Positions 8,446 to 50,800 of a DNA stretch of 64,000 nucleotides are shown here, one piece after another. Under the pieces are notes generated by a model. The model saw only the letters and a program-made list of their open reading frames with translations, had not been told where the DNA came from and made no database searches. The translations under genes were made by a program, and so were the position numbers. The first letter of the stretch is position 1, and the number at the start of each line of letters is the position of its first letter. Origin of the DNA: Pseudeuparius sepicola (taxonomy: Eukaryota > Arthropoda > Insecta > Coleoptera > Anthribidae). The stretch covers positions 117,615,373 through 117,679,372 of the forward strand of contig OY987299.1 in NCBI GenBank assembly GCA_963920635.1, written 5' to 3'.

Positions 8446-8598
8446 CCAGGGAGTCATATTCTTAGTAAAAGAATTCCTAATATAGTATTCTGAAAATTCA
8501 CAGCTTTAAAAAATTCATAGCTAGCCATGGAATAATCACTCAATCGAAATAGTAGTGACACTCTTCTCTTAGGTCAACCTAAAAAAATATATAATATA

Positions 8599-9452
8599 CA
8601 GGGTGTTAGTAAATAAGTGCGACAAACTTTAAGGGGAGATTCTACATGAAATAGTATATTACACACCGAGGTGGGAAGTGTTTCATTACTGTCGAGAGAT
8701 TAAATAGTTAACCGAGGTGCGAAGCGCCGAGGTTAACTTTAAAAGTAAAAAAATTGACACTTTCAAACTTCTAAAAAGTCAGAAATGTCAACATTACATA
8801 CGTGGTTGTAAATAAAAATAATTACAGTTTGCTATATAAACGTAGGTCCGCAAATGCTTCGTTTCCGATATACAGGGAGTCAATGTTAAAAAAAATGATA
8901 ATTTATTTATTGCGCTGAAACGGATTAAGATATTCAAATGAAATTTGGTGGGTTTAAGAGGACTAGAAAGCGCATTTTTTGACACCCGATTAAAAATTTT
9001 ATGTTAATCAGTGGCGTGCATAGGGGTAATGGCCTCGATATTTTTAAGAAAATAAATGATAGGAAACTGAGATAATTTAATATAAAAATTATTTTTAAAA
9101 TCCTAGTTTAATTAGTGACAAAAAAGCTCTCTTGCCTTTTTTTCACAGGGGCCGCCATTTTTATGCAAAAAAATAAAACAACATAACGCGTATTTAACAA
9201 TATCAAAAACCTGTCCTATACAGCAACAATAAATCAAAACAACAAATGAAAATAAAAATATCTCGAATAAAACATTTTTAGTTAGGTGCGCATAGCTATA
9301 ACAATAAATAAATTATCTTTTTTTTTTAACTTTGACTCCCTGTATATGGGAAACGAAGCATTTGCGGACCTACGTTTATATAGCAAACTGTCATTATTTT
9401 TTCATGTAGAATCACCCCTTAAAGTTTATCGCACTTATTTACTAACACCCTG
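8599..9452. mobile_element. Tc1/mariner-like MITE (CAGGGTGTTAGT ends)
   Basis: Flanking TA at 8597-8598 and 9453-9454. The first ~50 bases (CAGGGTGTTAGTAAATAAGT onward) recur inverted at the right end. A second inverted block inside (around 8825-8890 against 9310-9395) carries ACGAAGCATTTGCGGACC and its complement. At 8707-8737 lies a GC-rich palindromic module bounded by GTTAAC on both sides. No transposase is encoded. Flanking DNA matches the flanks of the element at 48972. Confidence 0.8.
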
Positions 9453-9454
9453 TA

Positions 9455-10698
9455 TAGAGCCGAATTTATCTGAGCTCTTAGAATTCTCGAGTGTCCACAA
9501 GCAAACGCGGACAACCAAGCACATACATTCGAATATTTGTCACTACCAGAGGATTTTGCATCAATACCACCAGAAACTACAAATGTGGCAGCATCCTTAA
9601 GTTCAGAGAAAAGAAGAAACGTAATAAATCAAGGTAAAGGTAGGTGTCGCCTATTCCTACCCGGAATATGTCTTAGGCAGTCATATTTAATAAAATTTGA
9701 AAACTAGCTTTTCTCCATTTTGTACAAACTTCACTCGACGGAATATGTTGTAACTAACTCGTATATTACAAAGCGATCCATATAATCTCAACACTTAAAC
9801 TCTCAATTATTAATCGCTCTACACCGGGAAGAATATTTTTTCCTACTCTGCACAAGAATCAAATATATCTGGCTATCTCTAATTGCGATCGCAGTTACAA
9901 CATAGCACACTTCTCGGAAGATCCAGCATGCCAGCAGCGAATAAACTGCCGTCAAAACATAATATATTTTTTGTGAGGTCAATAATAATTATTATTATCG
10001 CGAAATCTATTGTTCTTGATCACGCCAGACGGGCGTTTACCAAACCAGATGTTATTAAATATGTGGCAAAAAAACTCTTCTGTAAGGCCTCCGCAGCAAA
10101 TTATCAAACTCGAAACGAGAAATATTCAGGAAAGGTCATCCGTGAGACGTTCATTATTTTGTTCACGTATTAAGTGAGCATTGCCCTAAGTTTTTTTGTC
10201 TTTGAATAGTCTTCAATGAAATCATTTTTATAATTGCTGTAAATTGCTGAGACAAATATTGAGTGGCACTTAAAAACTGCGATTTAATATGTGTATTGGA
10301 CATATTTCTCCTCCAAATAGGTAATCTAAAATACGTAATGATGTTGATTGCAACCAAGAAAAATAATGAATGATTTTGAAGGTTTTTAATCCCCTCTCGA
10401 CAATTTTAATGCTCGAATAGCATGTGGTTACAGATTAGTCTGTGGGGCCAATAATTTAAAGTGTATTTTGGTCACATTTATTGTCATTTTGACCTTTGGT
10501 TGTATGCTAGGTAACACACAGGTTCTACCACGCAGAAGCAAAGGAACCAGAGTGCACATCAAAGACCTATTTTATTACCAACTTCCAAAGCAAATGTTTG
10601 CGTAACAGAATATGCCGAAGTTTATCTAGTAAGTGAAACATCTCTGGAATAGTTCATATGAAAATCTATAAAGAATTTATCTTCCTCTTGACATATAG
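9455..10698. other. gene-free stretch
   Basis: The first 90 bases continue the composite repeat also seen right of 50045 (shared ACAAGCAAACGCGGA). The remainder shows nothing I can support as a gene or RNA. Confidence 0.4.
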
Positions 10699-10849
10699 AC
10701 CGTCAGATAGTGACAGATTTAGGTGCCCCATTTTCGCATACAATCCTCGAAGGGGGTTGAAAAGTACATCGATGCTGAGTAGAATGAAGGGAAATTTGCG
10801 AGTGGCCGCTGGGGATAACATACTTATTTATATTATTATATAATATATA

Positions 10850-11942
10850 CAGTGTGTCCCCGGATGGACTTGACGAGGGGAGAAAATTCTTTATTATCTA
10901 TTTTTTCGACAAAAAGTCACTCTTCATAAAAAAGTACTGCTTGTTAAAAAAATAAAATTGCCATATTAAAATTTTTGATTTGATGTACAGGTGGTTAATA
11001 AATTAAGGAAACCTGAAATGTGTCAAGAGAAAACTACCTTTATTTATTACTTCACAGAAAAAATATAAAACAAATTTGTTTAGTATCTAAAATAAAGCCT
11101 AAATACAAATTTTCAAGTTTGAATTTCAAATTTTTATTATTTTGAATAATATTATTTAATGGTTTTGTGCGGCTAAATCAACTTGCCGCACGACAGGGAA
11201 GTATTAAAATATCGTATAAGTGAAGCAATAAATGAACTTAATGAACCAGAAATCATACGTAAAGTGTATGAAAAATTTATAGAAATTACTGAAATAGTAT
11301 ATTTCCTAACAAGTGCGGAAAGTGCCACTTTTCCGCACGCGATTGCAGTTGGCTGAACTCCGCTACGCGTCGCTCAGCCAAGAAATCGAGTGTGGAAAAG
11401 ACACTTTCCGCAAGAGTTAGGAACACTATTTTTTCTACAAGCGTGCGGAAAAGTAAGACACTTTTCCGCACGCATTTACTTTTCCGCACGCATTTTAGTT
11501 TAGAAAGTGTCACTTTTCCGCACTAGTGCGGAAAAGTAGTGCGGAAAGTGACACTTTCTATTCTAAACTAAAATGCGTGCGGAAAAGTGTACTTTTCCGC
11601 ATGCTTGTAGAAAAAATGTGTTGAGGTGGGAGGCAGCTATGTTGGTTGAATGATAATTGCAATTGGAATTTCAACTTGCAAATTTGTATTTAGGCTTTAT
11701 TTTAGATACTGAACAAATTGGTTTTATAGTTTTTTTCTGTAAAGTAATAAATAAAGGTAGTTTTCTCTTGACGCATTTCCAGGTTTTCTTAATTTATTAA
11801 CCCCTGTACATCAGATCAAAAATTTTAATATGGCAATTTTATTTTTTTGACAAGCAGAACTTTTTATGAAGAGTGACTTTTCGTCAAAAAATAGATAATA
11901 AAGATTTTTCTCCTCTCGTCAAGTCCATCCAGGGACACACTG
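10850..11942. mobile_element. Tc1/mariner-like MITE (CAGTGTGTCC family, copy 1)
   Basis: Flanked by TA at 10848-10849 and 11943-11944. Ends are CAGTGTGTCC and its inverse; arms of about 270 bp pair well (10850-11125 with 11680-11942). It encodes no transposase. Its core, 11290-11620, is a nest of short palindromes built from TGCGGAAAAGTG and its inverse. Copy 2 (39447) and a fragment near 38300 share the arm sequence, so a family is present. Confidence 0.85.
11290..11620. repeat. nested GC-rich palindromes inside MITE
   Basis: Multiple copies of GTGCGGAAAAGTG in both orientations form an approximately 200-bp imperfect palindrome centred near 11525, with CTACAAGCGTGCGG on the left and the matching CCGCATGCTTGTAG on the right. 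A second GC-rich hairpin around 11350-11385 joins GGCTGAACTCCGC to GCGTCGCTCAGCC. The composition is clearly unlike the AT-rich element around it. Confidence 0.75.
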
Positions 11943-12317
11943 TATAATATGTTAATTATGTATAATATATGTTTTATTTTTTTTTCGGGCTAGTGACAAT
12001 ATACATTTTCATACTTTCGATGGGCTTGTGTGGAGAAATCGGTCAAAATCTCGATTTTTTCCTTAGAAGATTACGCCCTTATTTCAACCCTTTTGCCACC
12101 TGCAACACTCAAGCCTTGGTTTTCCGAAGCCGGATTCTATTAATTAATCGTTTAGTGAACAGGGCTTGCGTGAAAATATGGGCAACAGACCATATGTTAT
12201 CCCCCATGGGCCATTCGTAAATTTCCCTTCATTCTAATCAGCATCGATGTATTTTTCAACCCTCTTCGTGGCTTGTATGCGAAAATGGGGCACCTAAGAC
12301 TGTCACTATCTGACGGT

Positions 12318-13776
12318 ATAATATTTGTCCCCAAAAACTAACTCAATATTTTTCAGTGGTTTCACAAAAAATAAATGTATGTAAAAACTATTAAAGGGCC
12401 CTAAATAGCCTCCAAATTAAATACGTGAAATAAAAAAAAACAATATTTTCTGTAGAAAAAATAGCGAGAAGTAGTACCTGTAGTACCTGAAGTACCACTC
12501 TTATTCAAACTACTATTGCTTACTCAAATGATATGCTGACTAGAGTATCCATATAAACAAAGATGCTTTCAACATTTGAAAATTAGTTCTACAATTTTAA
12601 TCGTTTTAGTTCTCTCCGTGTAACGTTTGTATAACCTCCTCCTTCCTCCCCATTTTTTCGATCCTCATATTTACATTATGAGCAAACTCCGTTACGGAAC
12701 ATATCTCCAACTATGGAATAAAGCTGGATTTTATTTTGATTGGCAGTTGTTTGGCTCGCCTCACAACAGCGTATATATTAAGTTAGTTAGTAATTTCAAA
12801 TGCATGCAGCTGCCAACACTTATTACATATTCTCATTCTTGGGATAGGTCGGGCAAAAATGTCTTAACATTTTCGCAACAGTTTTGCAGTCCTGTTCGCA
12901 TTTTTGCTGCACAAACAACCGCGAAGATGATGTTGGATAATCTCGAGCAATTTTAAAAGTGTAGCAACGAATTATACCTAATTTGTTTCCAGACCGAAAA
13001 TGGTGTAACAGAAACTGCAACCCGCAAAAAGCAATCTAAGTCAAGGGATTGTTTCTTTCAAAATGTAGTATCTAAACAATAAAATACTTGCAAAAAACTG
13101 ATTAAATTTAATGGGTATAATCAATTATTACACTTGTTAAAGCCGAGTAAGTTTAATAAACATAAATTTCAAATCCACCAGTTCTTGAAAATCTGCAAAC
13201 ATTCCTAAATATAAAATAAGATAATTATATCGTTAACAATAACAAGAGGTGAATTCTAGGATCCTGATATTTTAGAAAGTTTGTTTTGTGGGACAAAAAC
13301 CGGAGCTAGTGTACGACGTATTGTTGCTTTTCCTAATTTTAATACTTCAATTTATTGCCATGATTTCAAGACCAAATTACGTTTTCTATGCAATTTTCCT
13401 GGGCTGTATCTTATTTCCATTGCCGGTATTTCTATTATATCTCTTATCTAAATCCCATATTTCATTCCAAAAGGAGCCTACCTGCGTCACGTAATAAAAA
13501 ATTGAGGTCGCGCAGCAAAAGCTCAAAAAGAAAAACTATATTTTATGAATGAATTATACCGTATAACAAGTTATGTCGCGGTGGACAACCAACGGCAAAG
13601 GCTATTAAGAGCTTGTGTAATTTATGTACTTTTAAGTCTTTGTCTCAATGGAATTCGATATTGCGCGTTTGTTTAAGTATGAAAACGTGGGCAGAAAAGG
13701 CCCAAATGCATTTTTGAAAAGGTAGAATGTAGAGTTTTTTAAAAATGCCTCTTCAAGTTTAACGACTTTATTATTA
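12318..13776. other. gene-free stretch
   Basis: No gene supported. A block at 12420-12475 (GTGAAAT, then TTTCTGT.GAAAAAATAGCGAGA) resembles sequence at 30752-30812, marking an unclassified dispersed repeat. Hydrophobic open frames near 13300 look like chance products of T-rich sequence. Confidence 0.4.
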
Positions 13777-13780
13777 TACA

Positions 13781-14192
13781 TGTTACGGGCGACGTGAAGA
13801 CGAAGACTTTTTAAAAAACTTTTATTTGAGTAACGCGAGTTACAGAGTTTCGGCTTAGACTACAGACAAGACTAGAATTAACACTCTTACTTTACTAGGT
13901 CCTATTTATACAGATCTGTTATGCTGAGGTGTTGTGGTTCTCATGGGAAAAGAATATAAAGACAAAGGGAAGATCAAATTCTGCAATTCTTGCAGTAAGC
14001 AAGTTTTAACAATACTCAAAAGGAATATGATATGTTCTAGTAATCATTCTAGAACAATATACAATGGAAAATGATATCTTTGTAGTAAGCATCTTGAACA
14101 ATAGAGAATGAGAACATAATATCCAACAGTAAACAGAATCAAGGGTAAAAACAAGGTTATGATCAAGGTGATGCTTGAGGTCGGATATAACA
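13781..14192 (-). repeat. 3' LTR of errantivirus
   Basis: 412 bp, begins TGTTACGGGC and ends GGATATAACA on the + strand, bounded by TG...CA. Identical by eye to the copy at 22044-22455. On the minus strand an AATAAA lies at 13826-13821, about 40 bases before the LTR end, and is the likely polyadenylation signal. Confidence 0.95.
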
Positions 14193-14203
14193 CCTTCCCC
14201 CTT
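14193..14203 (-). other. polypurine tract
   Basis: On the minus strand AAGGGGGAAGG abuts the 3' LTR directly. This is the expected plus-strand primer position in a retroelement. Confidence 0.85.
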
Positions 14204-14240: not shown

Positions 14241-16157
14241 TTAGGCATATGTTTTAGTATTAGAATTTAGTTCAATTTCTTCTTCTTCGCGAGGTTCGTC
14301 CAATCTATACGAAGGTCTTCTTTTGACAGTAACAAATTTTCTTAAATTTTGAAAAACGCGATTTCGTGTTCTAGGAGGTTGTGGAGGATCGTCTCCGTTA
14401 TTAGTAGTAATAATGCCTATTTTAATGTTCCTAGACTTTTTACATTTAAAATAAAAGTACACAATAATTAAAAGTATGATTAAAGCAATGGATAGATATG
14501 TCAATATTGGCGTATACTTATTTACAGTTGGTTCGTTAATAATATTATCAAGATCCTTTGCATATTCGTCTAATTTATGCTTTGCGACATTTAAATCGTC
14601 ATAATTAAATTTATTTAGTTGTAAAGGTTTTAAGTCAGGATATTTTAGTTTATTTGGAGTTTCTTTGCAACATTCAAATGGTATATTAATTGGGTGAAAT
14701 TTATAGGTTTGATTAGATTTATTTAAATTTTTCGTTTGAATTTTAGTACTTCCAATATAAGCAATGCATTCAGATTTTAACGTTAAAATTGAAGTTTTGT
14801 CTAGCATTATAGTCAAAGGATTTTGATTTTTGCACTTAATAGTTATAGGAAATATTTCACTTAAAATTATTAACCATTGATTCTCTTGAATCAATTGTAC
14901 ATTGTAACTTTCAATTGAAATTGTGACTATGTCACAAGTATTAGGTAAATGGGTTTTTACCTCTAATAATTGAGCTTCACATCTTGAATGTGAGTCAATA
15001 GGAGTAGGATATAAATCTTTGCACATTATTAAATCAAATGCTAGTTCTTTACAATTTTTTATATCATAGAGAATTACATAGAGAGTTGGGTCATCGCTTT
15101 TTGCTACAAATTTAGTATCAGTGGATACCATGTGATAAAATCCAGTTTTATTGTCGAAAATTGGAATAGGATAAATTCTATAAAGAGTATACCATTGAGG
15201 TTCTACTAAAGGAATGTCTAATATAAAAACAAGTCTATTTTCTGTTTGAAAAACCTTTAGTTCTATAAAATCAAGATAAGTTGCAACATTTAGAAGTTGA
15301 GGAGTTAAGGGCAAATTATTTTTGTTTAAAGTTTGAGCGATTATTTGCAAATGATGAACCAGGTCTTCAGGAGTTATAACTGACGTGTGAATAATATGTA
15401 ACTTTGCAAAAGTAATAGAGTTTAGAATGTCATTTAAATTGCTTTCGATAAAGGTATAGGATTCTAGGAGTCTTTCGGCCATCTCTAAAACTTGTAATTT
15501 TGCAGTGTAATAATTAAAATTATCAGAAATGTTATAAATGTAATTTTCGATTTGTTTTATGTCATTATTAAAAGTAATTTCATCAATTTGTAATTTGTTG
15601 ATAGAGTCGTTAAAGTTTTTGATAACTGAAGTAGTTACTAAAATTTGTTTTTTCATTAATTTTTCTAATTCGTGTTCGTCTCTGTTAATTTTGTCGATAC
15701 AATCGTTATAATACTGTCCGTCTGAAGCGTCTAAATTTCCGGTAATAAATTTCCAAACTGACCCTAAACCATTAATTAAACCTCTTTTATATCTTCTTAC
15801 ATCAATAGCTAATTCTTCAAATTTGAGCGCAATGTTTTCGGAAAGTTGATTTAGTAAAGTGAGATGTGACTTAACTTCGCTTAGAAAGGCGGCCATTCGT
15901 ACGTCTTTTGGTTGAATTATAAATTGCATATTTTCTAAAATTTTATTATTATTTTCGAATGTTGTTTTTAGAGATGAAATGTCTTTATATACCAATAAAC
16001 TCCACTTGTCATTAGAAATTTTGAGTCCGGATTGCTCTTGATAGAACACGCCTATGGTGTTATTAATTGGTCGCAGTGTATATTGTGCCATAGCGGTAGC
16101 GTACAAAGAAAATCTGTAACGAAGTTTCAGAATTAGGAACTTGGTTCGATATAACAA
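14241..16157 (-). CDS. env: errantivirus Env glycoprotein
   Basis: A 638-residue ORF in the env position, overlapping the end of pol by 25 bases (16133-16157). In this class Env mediates membrane fusion and is made from a spliced RNA; I did not identify the splice sites. Visible features: a dibasic furin-type site RRYKR at residues 121-125, followed at once by a glycine-rich hydrophobic stretch (GLINGLGSVW) that fits the fusion peptide of errantivirus and baculovirus F-type proteins; helical heptad-like segments downstream; and one C-terminal membrane span around residues 545-570 followed by a basic cytoplasmic tail. The N-terminus has no strong signal peptide in the ORF as it stands, so the true start may be supplied by splicing. 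No stop or frameshift was seen. Confidence 0.9.
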   Translation of the reverse strand: MLYRTKFLILKLRYRFSLYATAMAQYTLRPINNTIGVFYQEQSGLKISNDKWSLLVYKDISSLKTTFENNNKILENMQFIIQPKDVRMAAFLSEVKSHLTLLNQLSENIALKFEELAIDVRRYKRGLINGLGSVWKFITGNLDASDGQYYNDCIDKINRDEHELEKLMKKQILVTTSVIKNFNDSINKLQIDEITFNNDIKQIENYIYNISDNFNYYTAKLQVLEMAERLLESYTFIESNLNDILNSITFAKLHIIHTSVITPEDLVHHLQIIAQTLNKNNLPLTPQLLNVATYLDFIELKVFQTENRLVFILDIPLVEPQWYTLYRIYPIPIFDNKTGFYHMVSTDTKFVAKSDDPTLYVILYDIKNCKELAFDLIMCKDLYPTPIDSHSRCEAQLLEVKTHLPNTCDIVTISIESYNVQLIQENQWLIILSEIFPITIKCKNQNPLTIMLDKTSILTLKSECIAYIGSTKIQTKNLNKSNQTYKFHPINIPFECCKETPNKLKYPDLKPLQLNKFNYDDLNVAKHKLDEYAKDLDNIINEPTVNKYTPILTYLSIALIILLIIVYFYFKCKKSRNIKIGIITTNNGDDPPQPPRTRNRVFQNLRKFVTVKRRPSYRLDEPREEEEIELNSNTKTYA

Positions 16158-16570
16158 ATTATTTTAATATCAGTATTTTTGAAAATATATTTGATCATAG
16201 GGAGAACTGTGTCCCAATCTAATTTGTCTAATCCACAAGCTAACTTGGGTATAGCTATAATTTTATCTTTTTCATCAGTGCTCTCGAGACAATTTGTTCG
16301 TAATTCCTTTAAGCAATTAAATAAATTAGCATAAGTTGGTTTATAATAGAAAAATTCTTTAGTTATTAAATAATAAATATTTCTTGTCGGAAGTTGAAGT
16401 ACTGCTATTTCACCAATTGACTTATTTTGATTTTTTAGTTCATCTACGTGTCCAAATTTATTCTTAAATTCTTTTGCAATTCCTGCATTCATTTCTAAAT
16501 CTTTAGATACACAGTGAGCTAATGAAATATTTTCAGGGGCATCAAATAAGTTGCCCAGTTCAATGGAAAC
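16133..16570 (-). CDS. macro domain (TARG1/OARD1-like) fused to C-terminus of Pol
   Basis: Residues 1136-1280 of the pol ORF. TARG1/OARD1 is a macro-domain hydrolase that removes ADP-ribose esters from Glu/Asp and deacylates O-acetyl-ADP-ribose. Shared features seen here in order: an N-terminal GNLF (GDLF in TARG1), LAHCVS (LAHCIS), NAGIA (GAGIA, ligand loop), KFG, GEIAVL (GEVAVL), YYLITK, KPTY.NL, then CGLDKLDW (CGLDRLQW). The Lys of YYLITK (residue 1206, codon 16358-16360) and the Asp of CGLD (residue 1250, codon 16226-16228) match Lys84 and Asp125, the catalytic pair of human TARG1. Length (145) is close to TARG1 (152). It may stay attached to integrase or be released by the protease; neither can be read from sequence. 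Activity is inferred, not shown. Confidence 0.9.
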   Translation of the reverse strand, partial: VSIELGNLFDAPENISLAHCVSKDLEMNAGIAKEFKNKFGHVDELKNQNKSIGEIAVLQLPTRNIYYLITKEFFYYKPTYANLFNCLKELRTNCLESTDEKDKIIAIPKLACGLDKLDWDTVLPMIKYIFKNTDIKIICYIEPSS

Positions 16571-19500
16571 GTTATTATTTTCAATAGGGATTTTTCGATC
16601 TAGAGTATAAAAGAATTCTTTAACCGTTAGTTCTTCTTCCTGTAATTCGTGACATTTCTTTAGCATATCAAAATTCATTTTTGTAGTTTGGTTAGTAATT
16701 GGGTTATGTAGCAAAGCTGAATTCGTATAAATTTCTTTAATTTTATAGGGTCCATTAAATTTGTTAGCTAGTTTATTTTTTATTTGGGACTCCTTGACAT
16801 AAACCTTTTCTCCTACGCGAAATTGTCGCTGCTCCGAAACGTGTGTATCAAATCGCTGTTTCGCCTTTTGTTTGCGCATATCCGTACGCTTTCTTGCCAC
16901 TTCATAATAATGCTTTATTTTATTGTTTAAATCGCGAACGTACTTAGAGATTAATTCTTGCTGATTATACAAAACTTCTGGAGGTCGAGACGAGGTGTGA
17001 CCGAATAGCAATTCGTAAGGAGTAAAACCGTGTGTTTTATTTATAGAATTGTTATATGCTATACAAGTGTAAGGGAGCATTTGAAATGGGTGTTCGTTAG
17101 GATTTTCTGTACTACATGCGCGTATCATTTCAGTTAAGGTGGCATGAAATCTTTCTAAGGAGCCATTTGATTGCGGATGACTAACACTAGAGAAAGTTAA
17201 TTTTATATTGTATAATTTACAAAGATCTTTCATTAATTGATTATTAAATTCTTTACCTACATCGCAATGGATTCTTAAGGGAGTTCCAAAATGTTGAAAA
17301 TAGAGTAACAGAGCGTCTACTACAGATCTCGCTGTTTTATTAGGAAGTGCATAAGCTTGGGTAAATTTTGTTAGTTCGTCTCTTATGGTAAGGATATTAT
17401 TTTTTACTGGGATTTCTAGGATATCGATATTTATTCTTTCGAAAGGAGTTTTAGGAGTTTCGGTAATAACTAAGGGACTGTCCAAGTTTTGTCTACAAAT
17501 TTTTGTCTTTTGGCAGATTTCGCACTGCCGAATAAATGTTTCGACGTCTTTAGTTAGTCCTGTCCAATTATATTTTTGTTTGATGCGTCTAATTGTTTCG
17601 TTTATTCCTCGATGTAAGTTTGTCTTGCCTGAATGAAATTGATCTATTATTATAGGTATTTGGTCTTCGTCTGGTATAGTCACAATGTTCTGACAAATTG
17701 TTAGTTGGAAATTTTTATCTGAGAACAAAAAATTAAACATTTCTAAAATTGGAAAATCTGGATTGTTTTCAATGTAATAAGTTTTATTTTCTTCGAATAT
17801 ATCTTTACTGTAATAAAGAGATATGAAGAGTACTTGTATTGCGGTTTCAAAATTAAAAGGAACAGGAATTATATAATATTTTCTTTTAGCTACGGTTTGA
17901 CTGGAAAGAACATTTGCTTTATTATAGTTAAAATCAGGATTTAGCTCAAGTAAATCATCAATAACTTTTTCGTGAAGGTCTGTTAATTTGTCTTGTTGAA
18001 AAATTAGTACAATGTCCTTGTGTGTTTTGTCTAAAAGTTGATTATTTGTATATTGGATTTTAGAATAGTCGATCATTGAAGTCGTCTTGTATAGATCAAA
18101 AAATCTGTCAAATTCATTACAGATTATAGCAATTTCGTCAGTCTCATTATTGTCAATAGGCGGGTCAATGTCTTGAGGATTATCATGGGAAGTAGATGGT
18201 TCGTCTAGGGAAGTATGAAAGGAAACAGCTTCTTTTATATGATTGATTTTGATTCGAGATAATGCGTCGGCATTTCGATTAATTTTTCCAGGTTTATAAA
18301 TTATTTGATAATTATATTCTTCTAATTTAAGTCGCCAACGTGCTAAACGACTACCGGGATCTTTTATTGAGAAAAGCCAGGTTAAAGGTCTATGATCTGT
18401 AACCAATAAGAATTTTCGTCCGAAAAGATAAGGTCTATAGTTTTTTACGGCAGCAATTATTGCCAAAAGTTCTTTCTCTATAACGCTATATTTCATTTCT
18501 GCTGGACTTAAGGTTCTTGAAAAGTATGCTATGGGAAGATCATTTCCAACAGGTCCTTGCGAAAGTACCGCGCCTACAGCAAAAGCGCTTGCATCTGTAG
18601 TTAAAACAAATTCCTTTTCAAAATTAGGATATATTAGAATTGGTGAAGTTATTAATGCATTTTTAAGTTGTTCGAAAGATTCACGACAATCTTTATCAAA
18701 GTTAAATGGTACGTCTTTTCTTAAAAGTCGAGTTAAAGGCTTTGTCATTTTTGCGAAGTTTGGAATAAACTTCCTGTAGTAACCAGTAAGACCCAAAAAT
18801 TGTTTAATTTGTTTAGTATTGGCAGGTTGAGGAAAATCGATAACAGCTTGTACTTTTTGTGGATTTGGTTTGACCCCTTCAGGTGTAATAACATGTCCTA
18901 AATAAATTACTTCTTTTCGTAAGAATTCACACTTATCTGGCTGTATTTTTAGATTTGAATTTCTTAATCTTTGAAAAACTTCAGTAATACGAGAGATATG
19001 TTCATTAATTGTGGAAGAATAGATAATAATGTCGTCCATGTAAACTAAGCACTTTTCGTTTTGTATTCCCATTAGTATATTATCCATAACCCTCTGAAAG
19101 GTTGAGGGCGCATTACGAAGGCCAAAGGGCATACGTAAATATTCGAAATGTCCATTTTCAACGGAAAAAGCAGTTTTCGAAATGTCTTCTGGATTCATTT
19201 CAATTTGTTGAAAACCAGAAGCCAAATCTAAAGTAGTAAAATAATGGCAATTACCCAACTGATCTAATATATCTGAAATATTAGGCAGTGGATACCTGTC
19301 ATTAACTGTTAATTCATTTAATTTCCGATAATCAATTACGATTCTCCATTTTTGTTTGCCTGAAGCGTCTAATTTTTTTGGAACGACCCATACTGGGGAC
19401 GACCATGGTGAAACAGAAGGTCTAATTATTCCTTGAGAAAGCATTTTATTAATTTGTGTTTTTACTTCTTCCTTGTGAACTTGTGGATATCGATAAGATT

Positions 19501-20590
19501 TAGTAAAAATTGGCTTAGCGTCGCCTGTATCGATAGTATGTTTTATTTCATTAGTAAAACTTAAAAAATCTCCGTCAAAGTAAAATATATCTTCAAAATT
19601 CAAACATAAATTAGTAATTAATTCCTTTTCTTCTTCGTTTAAATGTTCTAGCCTTAATGATTCTTTTATTTCTTCTACTCTGCTTTTCGTTTTATTAAAA
19701 TTACAAATAATATTAGCACTAGCCTTCGTTTCTTTAATGTAAGGCTCAAATTCAAATTCTTCGAAACAAATATCCTTTGTTATGGCATTAGCATTTAATA
19801 TTGTCGTATAAAAATTACCGTCTTCGTTTATTTTTACTATAGCATTTGGCACGTATACCTTTTCTACTCGTTGTGCGCATAAAATCATTTCTTTATTCGT
19901 ATATCTATTCGTATGAAACTTGCATATTTTTTCGCAACGCGGTTCTATCGTAACCTGATTTATATTATAACTCATATTTTCGCTTTCAAAATTATTTATA
20001 TTTTCCGTATTATCATTATTATTATTATTATTTCGTTCATAAGCGTTTATATGAAGGCTATCGTATCTTTCGTCAACATTAACTTGTCTTTTATAAACAA
20101 CTCGATTATTATTATCATTATTATTCGTTAACTCGTTTAATTCATCTCCGTCTTTGAGTAATTCGTGTACCTTATAGTACGTAATTAATTGTTTATTCCT
20201 AAAATCTACTACTGCACCGTACCTTTCTAAAAAGTCAGCGCCTAAAATTCCGTCGAATCCTATATCTAGATCGCAAATATAAACTTTATGGGGAGAAAGA
20301 GGACCCGTAAAAGAAACAAATACCGCTTCAGTAATAGGAATTGATTGGCCAGAAATACCTTTAATTTGAAAATTTTCTGGACATCGATTTAAAAATTGCT
20401 GAACCGTCTCTGGTTTGAAAATTGAAATACCAGCTCCTGTGTCAATTAAAATTTTGTACTTATCGGTATTATCTTTAATATAATATAAGTTACTATTGTC
20501 AACGGTATTTATGCAAACGTTTGGTCCGTATTGGTCATACCAAGATTCTTGAAGTTGGGAATAGGATTCTGGTCCGAGGCTGTTAATTGA
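16133..20590 (-). CDS. pol: errantivirus Pol: protease-RT-RNaseH-integrase plus C-terminal macro domain
   Basis: Open in the -1 frame relative to gag from the slippery site at 20590-20596; the first in-frame ATG is at 19975 and residues below are numbered from it (1280 aa). Order: aspartic protease (LIDTGAG at about 20427-20449, upstream of that ATG); reverse transcriptase with YMDD at 19031-19042; RNase H with the TTDAS motif near 18590; integrase with an HHCC zinc site (HSGKTNLH near 17610-17636, CEIC near 17515) and a DDE triad (near 17418, 17258 and 17152). Usual errantivirus Pol ends after the integrase C-terminal region. Here the frame continues into residues 1136-1280, a macro domain resembling OARD1/TARG1 (separate entry). 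Env begins within the last codons. Confidence 0.95.
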   Translation of the reverse strand, partial: SINSLGPESYSQLQESWYDQYGPNVCINTVDNSNLYYIKDNTDKYKILIDTGAGISIFKPETVQQFLNRCPENFQIKGISGQSIPITEAVFVSFTGPLSPHKVYICDLDIGFDGILGADFLERYGAVVDFRNKQLITYYKVHELLKDGDELNELTNNNDNNNRVVYKRQVNVDERYDSLHINAYERNNNNNNDNTENINNFESENMSYNINQVTIEPRCEKICKFHTNRYTNKEMILCAQRVEKVYVPNAIVKINEDGNFYTTILNANAITKDICFEEFEFEPYIKETKASANIICNFNKTKSRVEEIKESLRLEHLNEEEKELITNLCLNFEDIFYFDGDFLSFTNEIKHTIDTGDAKPIFTKSYRYPQVHKEEVKTQINKMLSQGIIRPSVSPWSSPVWVVPKKLDASGKQKWRIVIDYRKLNELTVNDRYPLPNISDILDQLGNCHYFTTLDLASGFQQIEMNPEDISKTAFSVENGHFEYLRMPFGLRNAPSTFQRVMDNILMGIQNEKCLVYMDDIIIYSSTINEHISRITEVFQRLRNSNLKIQPDKCEFLRKEVIYLGHVITPEGVKPNPQKVQAVIDFPQPANTKQIKQFLGLTGYYRKFIPNFAKMTKPLTRLLRKDVPFNFDKDCRESFEQLKNALITSPILIYPNFEKEFVLTTDASAFAVGAVLSQGPVGNDLPIAYFSRTLSPAEMKYSVIEKELLAIIAAVKNYRPYLFGRKFLLVTDHRPLTWLFSIKDPGSRLARWRLKLEEYNYQIIYKPGKINRNADALSRIKINHIKEAVSFHTSLDEPSTSHDNPQDIDPPIDNNETDEIAIICNEFDRFFDLYKTTSMIDYSKIQYTNNQLLDKTHKDIVLIFQQDKLTDLHEKVIDDLLELNPDFNYNKANVLSSQTVAKRKYYIIPVPFNFETAIQVLFISLYYSKDIFEENKTYYIENNPDFPILEMFNFLFSDKNFQLTICQNIVTIPDEDQIPIIIDQFHSGKTNLHRGINETIRRIKQKYNWTGLTKDVETFIRQCEICQKTKICRQNLDSPLVITETPKTPFERINIDILEIPVKNNILTIRDELTKFTQAYALPNKTARSVVDALLLYFQHFGTPLRIHCDVGKEFNNQLMKDLCKLYNIKLTFSSVSHPQSNGSLERFHATLTEMIRACSTENPNEHPFQMLPYTCIAYNNSINKTHGFTPYELLFGHTSSRPPEVLYNQQELISKYVRDLNNKIKHYYEVARKRTDMRKQKAKQRFDTHVSEQRQFRVGEKVYVKESQIKNKLANKFNGPYKIKEIYTNSALLHNPITNQTTKMNFDMLKKCHELQEEELTVKEFFYTLDRKIPIENNNVSIELGNLFDAPENISLAHCVSKDLEMNAGIAKEFKNKFGHVDELKNQNKSIGEIAVLQLPTRNIYYLITKEFFYYKPTYANLFNCLKELRTNCLESTDEKDKIIAIPKLACGLDKLDWDTVLPMIKYIFKNTDIKIICYIEPSS

Positions 20591-21705
20591 AAATTTTCGC
20601 TTTGGCCCAGATAATGTTGTTGGGGAGTTCTATTTTGATTATTTGGATTTGAATTTGGGAATCTAGGAGTAAAATTTTGATTAGAAGGCTGGAAACCTGA
20701 ATTATTATTAAAAGTTCTTGGGAAATTGTTTCTAGGAATATTATTAGAAAAATTTCTAGGAGGTTGATTTCTTGGTTGGAAGTTTTGAGGGTGGTTCCTA
20801 GGTTGGAAAGAAGGAGTTTGAAAATTATTTTGCTGAGGAAAAGATGGTCTTTGATGGAACCTATTTTGGGAGAAATTATTTCTTTGGGACTTATTTTGGA
20901 AATTGTTAGAGAAGCTAGAAGGATTTGGACCATTTCTGTAATAATTATTTTGATTTTTAGTTCGACATTCATTGATAGTATGTCCATTTCTTTTGCAATA
21001 ATTACAAAATTTTGGAAAACTATTATTAGTTCTCTTAACATTATTATTGAAGACTGGTACACGATTTTGCCTCTGAAATTTTTGATTTTCAAAATAAGAA
21101 AGTTGCAATTCTCTCTTAATTAAAGCTATAGCATCCATCATGTTGGGTGGATTGCTAGCACGAATTAGTTGCCCTATTCTTGGTTCTAAACCTGTCAAAA
21201 CTGTATTTAAACACATGCTATCGATTAAGGTAGCTTGCGATTCTTTTTGTTCCCTAGTGAGAAGGCTTTGTTTTCCTATTGCGGCATACATTTTCGAGCA
21301 GTGAGTTTGAACTCTGCCTACAAAAGTCAAAGCATTTTCATTTTGGGATTGACACATTCTTTGTAAATCTTGAATTAATGAAGTTAGATCGCGAGGATCT
21401 CCGAAATGAACGTTAAGTAATTGTTTGATTTCCCTCCAGGTACTCAAGCCTCTTGAATTAATGAGTTGGGCTGCACGTCCCTTTAATTGATTTTTAATTT
21501 TTATAACAAGTAAAATGGCTTGGTCGCCAACAGTCATTTGCATGGCCCTATCACATGCAATGATAAAAGTATTTAAATTGATTTGATCCCCATCGTATTC
21601 AGGGATGATAGAAAATATTTCGCTTAATTTAAATGGTACTTCGTCGTTATTTGAAGCGTTTGCTTCATTGTTTACATTAGAGTTTATAGCTTCGTTATTA
21701 AGCAT
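20509..21705 (-). CDS. gag: errantivirus Gag
   Basis: A 398-residue ORF upstream of pol. The first ~200 residues are helical and capsid-like; a CCHC zinc knuckle lies at Cys234, Cys237, His242, Cys247, followed by a long Asn/Gln/Phe/Pro/Arg-rich, low-complexity tail suited to RNA binding. Two other open frames overlapping this tail (20583-21092 minus; 20764-21123 plus) are products of its biased composition. The start is the first ATG after the leader, about 320 bases inside the primer binding site. Gag ends at 20509, overlapping the pol frame. Confidence 0.93.
   Translation of the reverse strand: MLNNEAINSNVNNEANASNNDEVPFKLSEIFSIIPEYDGDQINLNTFIIACDRAMQMTVGDQAILLVIKIKNQLKGRAAQLINSRGLSTWREIKQLLNVHFGDPRDLTSLIQDLQRMCQSQNENALTFVGRVQTHCSKMYAAIGKQSLLTREQKESQATLIDSMCLNTVLTGLEPRIGQLIRASNPPNMMDAIALIKRELQLSYFENQKFQRQNRVPVFNNNVKRTNNSFPKFCNYCKRNGHTINECRTKNQNNYYRNGPNPSSFSNNFQNKSQRNNFSQNRFHQRPSFPQQNNFQTPSFQPRNHPQNFQPRNQPPRNFSNNIPRNNFPRTFNNNSGFQPSNQNFTPRFPNSNPNNQNRTPQQHYLGQSENFQLTASDQNPIPNFKNLGMTNTDQTFA
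20590..20596 (-). promoter_or_regulatory. -1 ribosomal frameshift slippery site in gag-pol overlap
   Basis: On the minus strand the gag codons around here read GAA AAT TTT, giving A-AAT-TTT, a canonical X-XXY-YYZ heptamer. A one-base backward slip here enters the pol frame, 81 bases before the gag stop ends, and pol is open from this point on. Gag and pol frames differ by exactly -1. Confidence 0.75.
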
Positions 21706-21876: not shown

Positions 21877-22015
21877 AGGAGACTGTCCTTCTTAGTGCCT
21901 CCGGATCTTCCTGTCGAAGACCCTTTTCAGCTGGCTCCAATCGTAGTGGTGTGGTGACCCCCGAGGAGACTGTCCTTCTAAGTGCCTCCGGATCTCCCTC
22001 GTTGAAGACCCTTTT
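21877..22015 (-). repeat. tandem repeat in errantivirus leader
   Basis: Two copies of a ~52-bp block, 21877-21927 and 21964-22015, period 87, each holding GACTGTCCTTCT.AGTGCCTC and GAAGACCCTTTT on the + strand. They lie in the untranslated leader between primer binding site and gag, where packaging and insulator-like repeats occur in some gypsy elements. No function can be assigned. Confidence 0.8.
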
Positions 22016-22024
22016 ATCGAGGAT

Positions 22025-22040
22025 CCCACTTCTGACACCA
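22025..22040 (-). other. primer binding site
   Basis: Minus-strand TGGTGTCAGAAGTGGG starts three bases inside the 5' LTR. It begins TGG, as expected for pairing with a tRNA CCA end. The complementary 3' end CTTCTGACACCA would suit a leucine tRNA, but the tRNA identity is from memory of acceptor-stem sequences and is uncertain. Confidence 0.85.
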
Positions 22041-22043
22041 AAT

Positions 22044-22455
22044 TGTTACGGGCGACGTGAAGACGAAGACTTTTTAAAAAACTTTTATTTGAGTAACGCG
22101 AGTTACAGAGTTTCGGCTTAGACTACAGACAAGACTAGAATTAACACTCTTACTTTACTAGGTCCTATTTATACAGATCTGTTATGCTGAGGTGTTGTGG
22201 TTCTCATGGGAAAAGAATATAAAGACAAAGGGAAGATCAAATTCTGCAATTCTTGCAGTAAGCAAGTTTTAACAATACTCAAAAGGAATATGATATGTTC
22301 TAGTAATCATTCTAGAACAATATACAATGGAAAATGATATCTTTGTAGTAAGCATCTTGAACAATAGAGAATGAGAACATAATATCCAACAGTAAACAGA
22401 ATCAAGGGTAAAAACAAGGTTATGATCAAGGTGATGCTTGAGGTCGGATATAACA
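22044..22455 (-). repeat. 5' LTR of errantivirus
   Basis: 412 bp, no difference from the 3' LTR seen by eye. Being upstream on the minus strand it carries the promoter. I did not find a convincing TATA box; an initiator-type promoter is usual for this class. Confidence 0.95.
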
Positions 22456-32743: not shown

Positions 32744-34664
32744 CAGTGTGACCCATTTGTTTTGGGGTCAGTCTGTAAAAAGTGTATCAATCGTGCGATT
32801 TGGCTGATTTTTTTTTTAAATTGTAGAGCTCGATGAACTGCACATTTTGAACAAAAATTGCCTGGTTCGCATAAAATCCAAAGCCTACTATGACCGTTTT
32901 TATGAGCAAAATTTTAAGAAACCATATTAGCGTTTTTTTTTGAAAAAATCTGTGTGCGCCAATGGATTGAGCACCCCTCGAAATGGGTATGTACAAAATT
33001 TCATCAAAATATTTCAAGTAATAACGATTTTGTAGAAAAATTAAAAATGCAGTCAAAAATTCAAAGTTGGCCATGGAAAATAATTGAATTGTAATAATAC
33101 AACCTTATGCTTATAAACACAAAACATAAAAACAATTAAAATTATAAAATTTTTGTAACTTCTACCAAGCCTCCATTTTCTACAATGCATTTGTCGTTCC
33201 TCTTGCGTACATTCAAAATTACATTTCGTATTTGCTGTGGAGTAATTTCCTCCCAACTACGGTTTATCCTAGCTTGCAGTTCTTGTAAATTATGGGGTCT
33301 TGACTTATAAACATTTTGCTTAAGTGTACCCCATAGAAAAAAATCTAAAGGAGTTAAGTCCGGAGATCTCGGTGGCCACTCACAGAAAGGACTATTTCGC
33401 CCTATCCAACAGTTTTCAAAATTATTATCTAGCCAGTTTCTGATTAAACGAGCATTATGAATAGGACTGCCATCTAACTGTAACTTTAAATTTAAACGGT
33501 ATCTTAATGGTAACTCATCTAAAGCATTTCTAAATTCAATTTCTAGAAAATTCAAGAAGCCAGCCGCATTCAAATTCCCTTCAAAGAAAAATGGGCCAAT
33601 TATTCTGTCGCGTAGTATTCCACACCAAACGTTAATTTTTTGTGAATATTGTCTCCTTGCATTTATTATAAACTCTGGATTTTCAGCTGACCAGTGACGG
33701 CAGTTTTGACTTGATACTACACCATTTGCAGTAAACGTGGCTTCGTCGGTGAATAAAATTTCATTTAAAAAGTTGCCATTATGGAGATATTCACCTTGCA
33801 GCCAATAGCAAAATTCTAATCTTCTCTCCTCATCTCCTGGTTCCAGGGTGTGCAAAAATTTTGGCTTAAACGGTTTTATTTTGTTTTGTCTCAAACATCT
33901 CCTTATACTCTCTCTGGGTATATGAAGGTCTAAACTAGCCGTTCGAACACTATTTCGAGGATTGTCACTAAAGTATTGCAGAATTTGATTGTTATTTTCA
34001 ACAAGTCCACGGCGTCCATTTTGCCTAGTTTTTAATAAATTTTTAGAAATCGATCCAGTTTCATCAAAAATATTGTTTATACGTTGTACAGTACTTCGAC
34101 TCACTGATCTACCTGGGTGTCTATTGTTAAATTCGGCCGCAGCTTCCGCTGCCGAGCGCTCGTTGTCGCCCACGAGTCGAACAATTTCTATTTTGTCTCT
34201 TATGCTTAAATATTCCATAATTATGATAATTAATTGTATTGAGCACAAACAATTTCTGAACTCAATTTAGACAGTTTGACACTTAATAAAAGTAAACAAT
34301 TCAATTATTTTCCATGGCCAACTTTGAATTTTTGAAAATAAAGACGTACCTTGGCTGCATTTTTAATTTTTCTACAAAATCGTTATTACTTGAAATATTT
34401 TGATGAAATTTTGTACATACCCATTTCGAGGGGTGCTCAATCCATTGGCGCACACAGATTTTTTCAAAAAAAAAACGCTAATATGGTTTCTTAAAATTTT
34501 GCTCATAAAAACGGTCATAGTAGGCTTTGGATTTTATGCGAACCAGGCAATTTTTGTTCAAAATGTGCAGTTCATCGAGCTCTACAATTTAAAAAAAAAA
34601 TCAGCCAAATCGCACGATTGATACACTTTTTACAGACTGACCCCAAAACAAATGGGTCACACTG
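32744..34664. mobile_element. autonomous-looking Tc1/mariner-superfamily element with long TIRs
   Basis: 1921 bp, flanked by TA (32742-32743 and 34665-34666). TIRs are unusually long, about 350 bp (32744-33090 and 34297-34664), starting CAGTGTGACCCATTTG, and nearly identical apart from a T-run length change and a block of about 20 bases near 34330-34350 that is missing from the left arm. One uninterrupted transposase gene fills the interior. High arm identity plus an open gene suggests recent activity. Confidence 0.92.
33142..34248 (-). CDS. Tc1/mariner-superfamily transposase
   Basis: 368 residues if started at 34248; a second ATG at 34218 (residue 11) begins MEYLSIRDKIEIVRL and is the more natural start, because residues 1-10 are a hydrophobic run. 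An N-terminal helix-turn-helix region (about 15-65) is followed by a second DNA-binding segment and a DDE catalytic core: Asp168 in FTDEATFT, Asp259 in QLDGSPIHNA, and Asp302 in SPDLTPLDFFLWG, with 42 residues between the last two. This is longer than the 34 of mariner (DD34D) and Tc1 (DD34E), so it belongs to one of the longer-spaced insect lineages. No frameshift or stop seen. Confidence 0.9.
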   Translation of the reverse strand: MCSIQLIIIIMEYLSIRDKIEIVRLVGDNERSAAEAAAEFNNRHPGRSVSRSTVQRINNIFDETGSISKNLLKTRQNGRRGLVENNNQILQYFSDNPRNSVRTASLDLHIPRESIRRCLRQNKIKPFKPKFLHTLEPGDEERRLEFCYWLQGEYLHNGNFLNEILFTDEATFTANGVVSSQNCRHWSAENPEFIINARRQYSQKINVWCGILRDRIIGPFFFEGNLNAAGFLNFLEIEFRNALDELPLRYRLNLKLQLDGSPIHNARLIRNWLDNNFENCWIGRNSPFCEWPPRSPDLTPLDFFLWGTLKQNVYKSRPHNLQELQARINRSWEEITPQQIRNVILNVRKRNDKCIVENGGLVEVTKIL

Positions 34665-47814: not shown

Positions 47815-50800
47815 TCAAGCATAGATGATTGGTATTAAAATCGCAACAATTAAAATTAGTAGGGCTATCACCATAATTAAATATAATTTGTTTCCTGTAT
47901 TTTCAGATGGCATTTTTGGCAAAATTTCCTCATTTTCACATTCTACTGCTCCATTATAATACTGAGTAATATCTGAAATAGTTGAGACATTATATTATTT
48001 GCATAGAAAAGCAAAATATAATATCTTACCTGCAGTCCCTTCTATATCCTGTATATCAACTTGTTTGTCACTTTTAACATCTAAGATTTCTTCCAAAGAA
48101 AGTTTGACATCTTCTGGACCTTCACCGGGAAATAAATAATCTGAAAGTGTAATTTTACTCTCTGGTAAAGTTATTAAAACTCGTCTGGGAGGTTCATGCA
48201 CACTATTCACATCTAAAACCAAACAATAATAATTAATAATCAAATATTCCAATACACATTTCTTCTTGCCTTCAGAATTTTCCTCTTCAGTCAAACAGTC
48301 CCAGTGCATTTCAAGTCTAGTTGACAAACTTCTCATTATATCCTGTATTAAAGCGTTTCTAGCTTCACTGATTGTTGCTTTGGGATTTAACCAAAGTTTA
48401 GATGCTACTTCACCTACTAACCTAATTTGGCCACCAATATGGCATAATTCAAAAATATGAGACATTTCTTCATCTACACCCTACAAAATAGAAGAAATAA
48501 ACAACTACAACATAGGCTGGTGCAAAAACGGATTTTAAAGGCTAAAAAAATTGTTAACAGGCAAGGACCAGCCGGAAAATTATTTAAGGTCAGCAGTAGT
48601 AACAAAAAGAAACAAAAATTAAACACGACGTCAGTCGATGTTTATGGGCTGAAACTGTTTAAATAACTCAATTCACATGAAATTTAAAAAAGATGTCCAA
48701 CCTATGCCCCGTGGTTTATACAGGATACTTGGGAAAATCCATTTTTTTTTTATTTTGGCCCCATATAACTTATAGAGTATTGATATTTTGTAAGAACGTT
48801 TTGAGCTATGGCCAATTCGATGGCATCATCCATTTTGATCTTAAAATAATGCCTAATATAGTATTCTGAAAATTGGTCATTTAAAAAAATCATAGCCAAC
48901 CATGGAATAATCACCCAATCACAATAGTAGTGTATTTGAGATAATCTTCCCTTAGGTAAATCTAAAATATACAGGGTGAGTCACAATGTATAGTAAATAC
49001 TTTAAAGGGGTGTTTGGCAGGTGGTTTTAAGGGGGTCTTTCATATAACATTTTTCGATTTGGGCTTTCCTTTCCAAGTTATTCGGGTCTACAAGATGACC
49101 CAAAAGTATTTTTTTTTATTTATATCTCAATAACGGCGCTACTTAAAAATTTGAAATTTGGTATGTGTTATCTACTTACTGGAAGATGCCTTAGGGTAAT
49201 TTATTCATTTACACAGTGCCCTAAAAAATGGTAAAAACTAACAACCCCTATTAATTTTTTTGCTCAAACTTTTTTGAGGTTATCTTTTTGGTCTTTAAGG
49301 TCCATCATTTCAGTGTATCTTTTCATTTTACAACAAAAGTGTACTCTAACGATAAAATCAACCGTTTGCGTTGAAATTGGCAAAATGTGCCCCAAAACAC
49401 CCGTGTTAACTTCAACATTCGAAACATAAAATTTTTACCTACCTCTTTCAAACGTTACAGATCGACGGTACATTCAAAATAAGGAAAAAAATACCAATTG
49501 GACATTGGTCAAAACAGCATTGGTTTTATTGAAAAATAGGGTGTTCAAATTTTGTTAAATTATATCATGATGAATATCATGATCTTTGGTTTCGAGTGTT
49601 GAAGTTAACAGGTGTTTTGGGGCACGTTTTGCCAATTTCAACGCAAAGGGTTGATTTTATCGTTATGAAACAAGAGTACACTTTTGTTGCAAAATGAAAA
49701 GATACACTGAAATGATGGACCTGCAAGACCAAAAAGATAACCTCAAAAAAGTTTGAGCAAAAAAATTAATAGGGGTTGTTAGTTTTTACCATTTTTTAGG
49801 GCACTGTGTAAATGAATAAATTACCCTAAGGCGTCTTCCAGTAAGTAGATAACACATACCAAATTTCAAATTTTTAAGTAGCGCTGTTATTGAGATATAA
49901 ATAAAAAAAATACTTTTGGGTCACCTAGACCCGAATAACTTGGCAAGGAAAGCCCAAATCGAAAAATTTTATATGAAAGATCCCCCTTAAAACCACCTGC
50001 CGAACACCCCTTTAAAGTATTTACTATACATTCTGACTCACCCTGTATAATGGCGAGTTTTACTAGTTCCTTCATAGGTTTCTAGATTGTTCACAAGCAA
50101 ACGCGGATACACTGTATGTACAAAAGAATAGTTTAACAAATCTCCGCAATGGCTCCTCTTATGACAAAATGTCAAATTAACAAAATTAAAGAAAACAAAA
50201 TTTACTACATTTCATGTCTTAAACTTTTTTTGTACGTATAATATGTGAAAAGTTACACGGGAAGATATATGAATATTTTTAAAAAAATTGCACCATTTGC
50301 AACAGATTTCCATCCCTACCGTGTGGCATTCCTTGTTGGAGGCAAAGGGGCAAGACTGAATTTACTTTTTGTCGAACATTTTACAAAAAAGTTTATTGTA
50401 GCGGAGTTCTTCCAACGTTTATTTTTCCATGTCGCCGCCATACAAAGCAACAAGACACTATGCTCTTCAATGCTTTCTGGTTTGGCATCAGGTTGTATGA
50501 AGATGTCGATGATGTCATTGTGTTTTGTGTGTTTTTGAACATGCGATAAAAATTTCAGTTTTCCTTGGCTAAAGACGGACGATGTCTTGCAGCCACTAAA
50601 CGCATGCAGGAACAGAATGTTCTCAGCTGCTTCTTTTTCTTTTAGACGTTTTGCAGAATACGGTCTTTGCTTTGCTAAAATAAATGTTGCCTAAATGTGG
50701 TGTCAATGCTGTTAGCAGAGCAGACCTAGATCTTCTCCAATAACGAAAACAGCGTCAAAGATTGAGCACAAGGAAATAGCTGTATTCACAATCATAACTT

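Follow-up and report, generated by a model that had tools for sequence, protein, structure and literature searches.

A TARG1/OARD1-type macro domain as an extra Pol module in several Ty3-type retroelement lineages

Why would the Pol protein of a retroelement end in a domain that resembles a human ADP-ribosyl hydrolase? The question is raised by a long terminal repeat (LTR) element, about 8.7 kb long, which lies on the minus strand of a 64,000-nucleotide stretch of the Pseudeuparius sepicola genome (contig OY987299.1; this whole stretch is called the window below). The element is of errantivirus type, with gag, pol and a baculovirus-F-like env. According to the listing of open reading frames (ORFs), its pol frame (16133..20629, minus strand) comprises 1498 open codons plus a stop at 16133-16135, and it runs uninterrupted into a macro domain of 145 residues at the C-terminal end of Pol (16136..16570, minus strand). 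An in-frame TARG1/OARD1-like domain at this place had been proposed by an earlier reading of the letters alone (the sequence-only reading), and it is confirmed here. The Pfam Macro profile scores 26.3 bits against a cut-off of 22, and phmmer against PDB sequences matched human OARD1/TARG1 at an E-value of 9.1e-37 over residues 5-140. Five distinct OARD1 sequences gave E-values from 9e-37 to 1.2e-36 and the next distinct PDB sequence 0.1; judged by sequence, the domain is nearer to OARD1 than to other macro classes.

The AlphaFold2 model of the domain, computed from an alignment of 42 sequences, reached a predicted local distance difference test score (pLDDT) of 96.5 and a predicted template modelling score (pTM) of 0.91, in keeping with the macro fold that the sequence-only reading had expected. 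Foldseek returned as its top match 4j5s, TARG1 in complex with ADP-ribose (template modelling (TM) score 0.92, root mean square deviation 0.9, 47% identity), and ranked DarG and more distant macro domains below TARG1, at no more than 24% identity among the rows listed. A chance match of motifs is ruled out by phmmer, the AlphaFold2 model and Foldseek. By alignment with 4j5r, Lys71 (codon 16358..16360, minus strand) corresponds to the catalytic Lys84 of TARG1, and Asp115 (codon 16226..16228, minus strand) to Asp125, which we take to be catalytic in TARG1 as well; the retention of both had also been claimed earlier. These two residues are invariant across the 42 aligned proteins and retained in all 27 element rows, some of which are near copies of one another. 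For TARG1, K84 is covered in PMC8501950. The Pol-borne domain thus shares with ADP-ribosyl hydrolases both its predicted fold and its catalytic residues.

Is the fusion real, and is it intact? The two LTRs of 412 nt (5' LTR 22044..22455, 3' LTR 13781..14192, both on the minus strand) match each other exactly, as had been noted before, and TGTA abuts the outer side of both, giving a short target duplication. We searched the genome (769 Mb, 16 contigs) with the macro domain, a query that detects only places that have it; of 907 candidate places, 150 were scored. Each of them, located on contigs C1 to C11, was 99-100% identical to the macro domain of the window; 149 contained no internal stop, in line with the earlier view that the domain is not decaying, and 63 lay in frames of at least 1400 codons by hand count. 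An LTR search, in which 40 of 856 candidates were scored, yielded 40 matches identical over 412 nt. Among them were 13 LTR pairs about 8.2 kb apart, the window pair included; a macro place from the domain search lies inside 11 of these pairs, and the other two enclose none among the matches listed. The window family is young and numerous. Because at least 150 copies at 99-100% identity and independently found LTR pairs enclose the domain, the fusion is not an assembly error; a chimera and a single decayed copy are excluded on the same grounds. At one locus of this genome (G000:C1:106073422-106079574) the macro domain occurs three times at a spacing of exactly 2859 nt, with the last two in 897-codon open frames, which looks like a tandem repeat of an element segment.

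The fusion also recurs elsewhere, as the sequence-only reading had suggested looking for, and in Pol positions other than that of the window. A protein search on the macro region found six Pols among 137 candidates, and a second search from one of them (P0003, from the ladybird Harmonia axyridis) found P0003 and two new Pols among 133 candidates. Seven of these eight database Pols (P0002, P0003, P0004, P0005, P0007, P0059, P0060) carry the macro domain between RNase H and integrase, and the eighth, P0006, has it behind integrase, the same slot as in the window. Partial macro proteins were found in Rhamnusium bicolor (P0020), Brassicogethes aeneus (P0037) and, interrupted, in Molorchus minor (P0024); by eye, the macro domain of P0020 stands directly behind an RNase H-like tail. 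The sources of P0003, P0020 and P0037 are beetles by lineage, and Molorchus is a beetle too.

Some of these proteins carry further domains. A second, degenerate macro domain follows the first in P0003 (residues 632-730) and P0059 (residues 947-1033), with E-values of 7.7e-8 and 5.2e-9, respectively, from a purpose-made profile and 12 sequences, and by eye both are without the CGLD segment. The C-terminus of P0006 and P0037 gave weak CCCH-type zinc finger matches behind the macro domain. In the window element, no second macro domain was detected in the spacer between RNase H and integrase (score -1.0) or in the stretch between protease and reverse transcriptase (RT; 0.1).

Two queries were used to look for other families within the P. 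sepicola genome: the OARD1-like protein P0023, for which 150 of 841 candidates were scored, and a diverged macro domain from an element, for which the figure was 150 of 880. A small part of these places was examined. The macro domain precedes RT, with a protease match upstream, at L119, L121, L122 and L128; it also precedes RT at L134, where the piece examined does not include protease, and at L009, L019 and L020, which have gag or gag-like ORFs upstream and a protease seen as a weak match or by eye. The order RNase H, macro, integrase, env was found at L117, L118, L120, L125 and L126 (RT not found in L118), the order integrase, macro, env at L021 and L022, and integrase followed by macro at L015. 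No RT match was obtained at the macro-bearing loci L010, L123, L124, L127 and L129, which are assigned to none of these slots; at L010 the macro domain is followed downstream by an RNase H remnant similar to that of the window. At L123 (C7:31168115) and L124 (C5:24149741), protease, macro and env were matched and RT, RNase H and integrase were not; the macro domain is uninterrupted in both, which are possibly a deletion-derived, non-autonomous family. The TARG1-type macro domain is therefore an extra Pol module in several Ty3-type lineages and occupies three slots. With eight database Pols and several families of a single genome, the phenomenon is larger than first held.

How can one module occupy different slots? 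A comparison is offered by sister families (L119, L121, L122, L128) whose RT is 82-83% identical to that of the window (slice 18896..19435, minus strand). Their RNase H is 72-77% identical, the integrase zinc finger 79-81%, and the integrase core 73-76%, or 65-76% counting the shorter L130 and L131 pieces. Their macro domain lies before RT and is 48% identical to that of the window, and behind the sister integrase no macro match was found at an E-value of 0.001 in any of four cases (L130-L133). The protease-to-RT distance is 915 nt in the window and 1305-1885 nt in the sisters, and the integrase-to-env distance 1613 nt in the window and 1194, 1234, 1284 and 1507 nt in the sisters; the last of these (L119 kind) is merely 106 nt under that of the window, so that the distances agree in part. 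In an RT tree built without named gypsy-group reference elements, the window and both sister kinds were joined (89/87, unstarred) inside a starred set that includes families with the macro domain between RNase H and integrase (97/92). The approximately unbiased (AU) test rejected a single macro clade of the window with the L121 kind (p 0.001) and with all four sisters (p 0.00037). At least in this pairing of the window with the L121 kind, slot and macro tree agree that the two macro domains are not one and the same inherited domain; either that of the window or that of the L121 kind was replaced or newly gained.

Where the domain came from was examined in three macro trees: a first one, with P0014 and P0024 left out; a 54-row tree, also without the standalone proteins P0021, P0051, P0053, P0054, P0055, P0057 and P0058; and a 48-row tree of 13 standalone, 8 OARD1 and 27 element rows, without near copies of the window family. 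All three join the window with P0002 and P0004 (92/90, 92/79 and 94/89, respectively; none starred). As its nearest relatives, with this moderate and unstarred support, are element domains, the macro domain of the window may stem from retroelements themselves and not directly from a host gene. The 54-row tree places its 14 element rows on one side of a weak branch (43/77).

A different history, in which each lineage captured the OARD1 of its own insect host, would account for differing slots and low sister identity, and we regard it as possible, if doubtful. It is favoured by the three slots, by a macro identity of 48% where RT reaches 82-83%, and by the 48-row tree, in which the element rows do not form one clade and two groups (window/P0002/P0004 and P0003/P0059) fall near standalone proteins. 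Against it, a tree constrained to keep all 27 element macro domains in one clade is no worse than the unconstrained tree (p 0.53), with a log-likelihood 1.14 higher, and a branch supported at 96/91 sets the element rows together with four standalone proteins (P0018, P0046, P0035, P0026) apart from the 17 other OARD1-like rows. Moreover, when the linkers before the macro domain of L010 and L121 were compared with three linkers of elements that have the domain between RNase H and integrase, none of 2000 shuffles reached the same degree of likeness. The likeness is weak for L119 (55 of 2000 shuffles as high); the same shuffle test did not show it for the window, where the count was 51 to 556 of 2000 depending on the training set, nor for L009, L020 and P0006. 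The trees are read most simply as a single capture with later exchange between elements, though they do not prove it.

The host OARD1 was not found in the P. sepicola genome among the 150 of 841 scored matches to P0023, of which a few of the diverged places were examined. A phage or virus source was considered and rejected: in a scan of viral contigs with A4, the best 80 of 103 relatives were 26-42% identical, and none of the 80 loci had an RT or integrase match within up to 4 kb on either side. The same kind of scan with P0001 alone gave none among 15 stretches.

What could a Pol-borne hydrolase do? TARG1 cleaves ADP-ribose esters on acidic residues. By analogy, the element domain is likely to be active and, as TARG1 does, to remove mono-ADP-ribose from acidic side chains and from single-stranded DNA. 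Being made as part of Pol, it might, although we are less sure of this step, be packaged in the particle alongside RT and integrase. There it would strip ADP-ribose that a host transferase attaches to Pol, to single-stranded cDNA or to the integration complex, marks that would otherwise stand in the way of reverse transcription, of integration or of expression. Which slot of Pol the domain occupies would hardly matter, because the job needs delivery with Pol alone, and with such independence of position the domain could have moved, been swapped or been replaced between elements, much as dUTPase was gained at several retroviral places. For this explanation as a whole, a Pol-borne active eraser that is delivered with Pol and exchangeable between elements, we see even chances. 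The wider proposal is more tentative: insects, beetles at least, may restrict retroelements by ADP-ribosylating Pol, cDNA or integration complexes, and a Pol-borne TARG1-type eraser may be the answer, circulating as a module exchanged between sister families at different places in Pol. In PARP-1-null flies, according to PMC7712786, eight mobile elements changed significantly, five up and three down, and ten further elements rose below significance. The sequence-only interpretation, a captured host or viral-type hydrolase that perhaps counters PARP-based restriction or acts at integration sites, is as a whole partly supported: the in-frame fusion of a TARG1-type domain, its presence in at least 150 copies and its recurrence in other families and in H. 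axyridis stand, and the checks of macro fold, assembly error and recurrence did not refute it, while capture from this host and action against PARP or at integration sites are conjectures.

The main functional rival is a reader in place of an eraser: the domain would bind ADP-ribose where DNA is broken or chromatin is PARylated, and would tether integrase or Pol to such sites, in the manner of a chromodomain. The position of the macro domain after integrase in the window and P0006 would suit such a role, as would the nearest structure, an ADP-ribose complex (4j5s); a C-terminal chromodomain is described for chromovirus Pol in PMC12440569. We nevertheless consider it unlikely, as both catalytic residues, needless for binding alone, are kept in 27 of 27 rows, and seven of the eight database Pols, like several families of the P. 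sepicola genome, have the domain at a place other than behind integrase. A metabolic or RNA-directed role, in which the domain clears O-acetyl-ADP-ribose, or ADP-ribose on RNA or cDNA ends, and so aids reverse transcription without any host restriction, is prompted by PDB entries that call the human protein O-acetyl-ADP-ribose deacetylase 1; no finding counts specifically against this role, which we rate as quite improbable.

Selection on the domain was assessed from the ratio of nonsynonymous to synonymous substitution rates (dN/dS) in twelve macro pairs, two of which are saturated in dS. The ratio was low in the better separated pairs L010-L123 (0.11), L010-L124 (0.17) and L117-L129 (0.12), which are under purifying selection; L117-L121 gave 0.16 at a dS of 1.9 and L019-L020 gave 0.08 on 4 changes. 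For L117-L120, the dN of the macro domain (0.187) exceeded that of RT (0.043). That the domain is a functionless passenger of recently bursting elements is already disfavoured and very hard to credit: copies are too alike for drift to show yet, and near-identical pairs give a dN/dS that is either uninformative or above 1, but the catalytic residues are intact across elements about 45-56% identical to the window's domain, dN/dS is 0.11-0.17 in the three better separated pairs, and the domain recurs in many lineages.

Several observations weigh against an exchangeable, selected eraser of ADP-ribose. Higher dN/dS values were obtained for L123-L124 (0.29), L119-L121 (0.39) and L121-L122 (0.47); the macro domains of the window and L022 gave 1.23 on 9 changes, and those of L117 and L118 differ by three nonsynonymous and no synonymous changes. 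Near-identical pairs say little, because the RT of L121-L122 also gives 1.32 on 6 changes. The sister protease (44-46% identical to the window) and env (51-57% in L130-L133) are diverged to a similar degree as the macro domain, so low macro identity alone is not proof of replacement. Furthermore, the AU test does not reject a macro clade of the window with L119 (p 0.0997) or one of the window with P0005, P0007 and P0060 (p 0.066), and the macro trees contain no gene known as an insect OARD1. Finally, the PARP-1 authors (PMC7712786) allow an indirect cause for the rise of the elements.

The remaining parts of the window element, all on the minus strand, follow the errantivirus plan. The gag ORF (398 residues, 20509..21705) was assigned by position and by matches under the cut-off (Retrotrans_gag, E 0.0068; zinc knuckle, E 0.62), and by coordinates pol overlaps its end in the -1 frame. 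A protease region, recognised by eye from DTGAG ... GILGADFL (20156..20470) and by a stretch 44-46% identical in L119, L121, L122 and L128, lies upstream of the first ATG of pol at 19975 in the same open frame. The 1280 residues given earlier for Pol hold as the length from that ATG, which is, however, internal, the frame opening at 20629 with protease upstream. RNase H (18314..18625; PF17917, E 1.3e-37), the integrase zinc-binding domain (17501..17668; PF17921, E 3.2e-16) and the integrase core (17174..17449; PF00665, E 6.9e-11) complete the Ty3-type order of protease (by eye), RT, RNase H and integrase. The third ORF, env (638 residues, 14241..16157; PF12259 Baculo_F, E 2e-39), has its first in-frame ATG at 16091 and shares the last 25 bases of pol, so that integrase, macro domain and env succeed one another along the element. 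A candidate primer-binding-site region (22014..22043), placed by analogy with other LTR elements, directly follows the 5' LTR, and a polypurine tract recognised by its sequence, AAGGGGGAAGG (14193..14203), directly precedes the 3' LTR.

Elsewhere in the window, two minus-strand ORFs at 47995-54765 match both parts of an ODR4-like protein (PF14778) and are probably exons of a host gene. A 748-residue ORF at 56510-58756 (minus strand) with DUF4371 and a hAT dimerisation domain encodes a hAT-type transposase, and one of 368 residues at 33142-34248 (minus strand), which matches DDE_3 and a Tc3-type helix-turn-helix, encodes a mariner/Tc-like transposase. Imperfect inverted repeats at 8595-9456 and 10696-12320, with arms of 62-142 nt that are 85-96% complementary, are perhaps non-autonomous DNA elements.

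Virus-encoded macro domains are classical tools of RNA viruses against host ADP-ribosylation. That an eraser class acting on DNA occurs in the Pol of retroelements which are young and present in many copies suggests that ADP-ribosylation may be a barrier to retrotransposition, an idea for which sister families with the macro domain in different slots are natural comparisons. Its recurrence in related elements hints at a hidden conflict over the ADP-ribose tag. In the literature searched by title and opening of the abstract, a scope that excludes repeat-library reports and subscription papers, we found no description of a Ty3/gypsy or errantivirus Pol with a macro domain. The available portion of a survey of viral NAD and ADP-ribose functions (PMC9503650) makes no mention of integrase, reverse transcriptase, OARD1, TARG1 or Metaviridae, and that of the Troyka element paper (PMC12440569) none of macro. 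A macro domain in a retrovirus has a precedent: according to a review (PMC4977317), epsilon-like retroviruses of fish occasionally encode macro domain proteins in ORFs beyond the usual set; as far as described there, these are extra ORFs and not Pol fusions, in viruses outside the Ty3/errantivirus group.

Among known systems, the element as a whole resembles the insect errantiviruses (gypsy group) in gag, pol, baculovirus-F-like env, short target duplication and identical LTRs. Its macro domain shares with human TARG1/OARD1 (C6orf130) the predicted fold (TM 0.92), about 47% identity, the catalytic lysine and aspartate, and the GIA and CGLD loops; TARG1, however, is a standalone cell protein, whereas the element domain is a module of a retroelement Pol with predicted hydrolase activity. 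Coronavirus and alphavirus macro domains and DarG have the same macro fold, at 24% identity or less compared with 47-48% for TARG1. The retroviral dUTPase is likewise a cellular enzyme that became an accessory Pro/Pol module in three places, and PMC1224870 describes three acquisitions, one N-terminal of Pro, one within Pol and one behind integrase. Enzyme and substrate differ, the third slot of the elements lies before RT whereas that of dUTPase is N-terminal of protease, and the element slots differ even between families of one genome whose RT is 82-83% identical. In both cases, Pol appears as a platform that gains accessory enzymes at several places.

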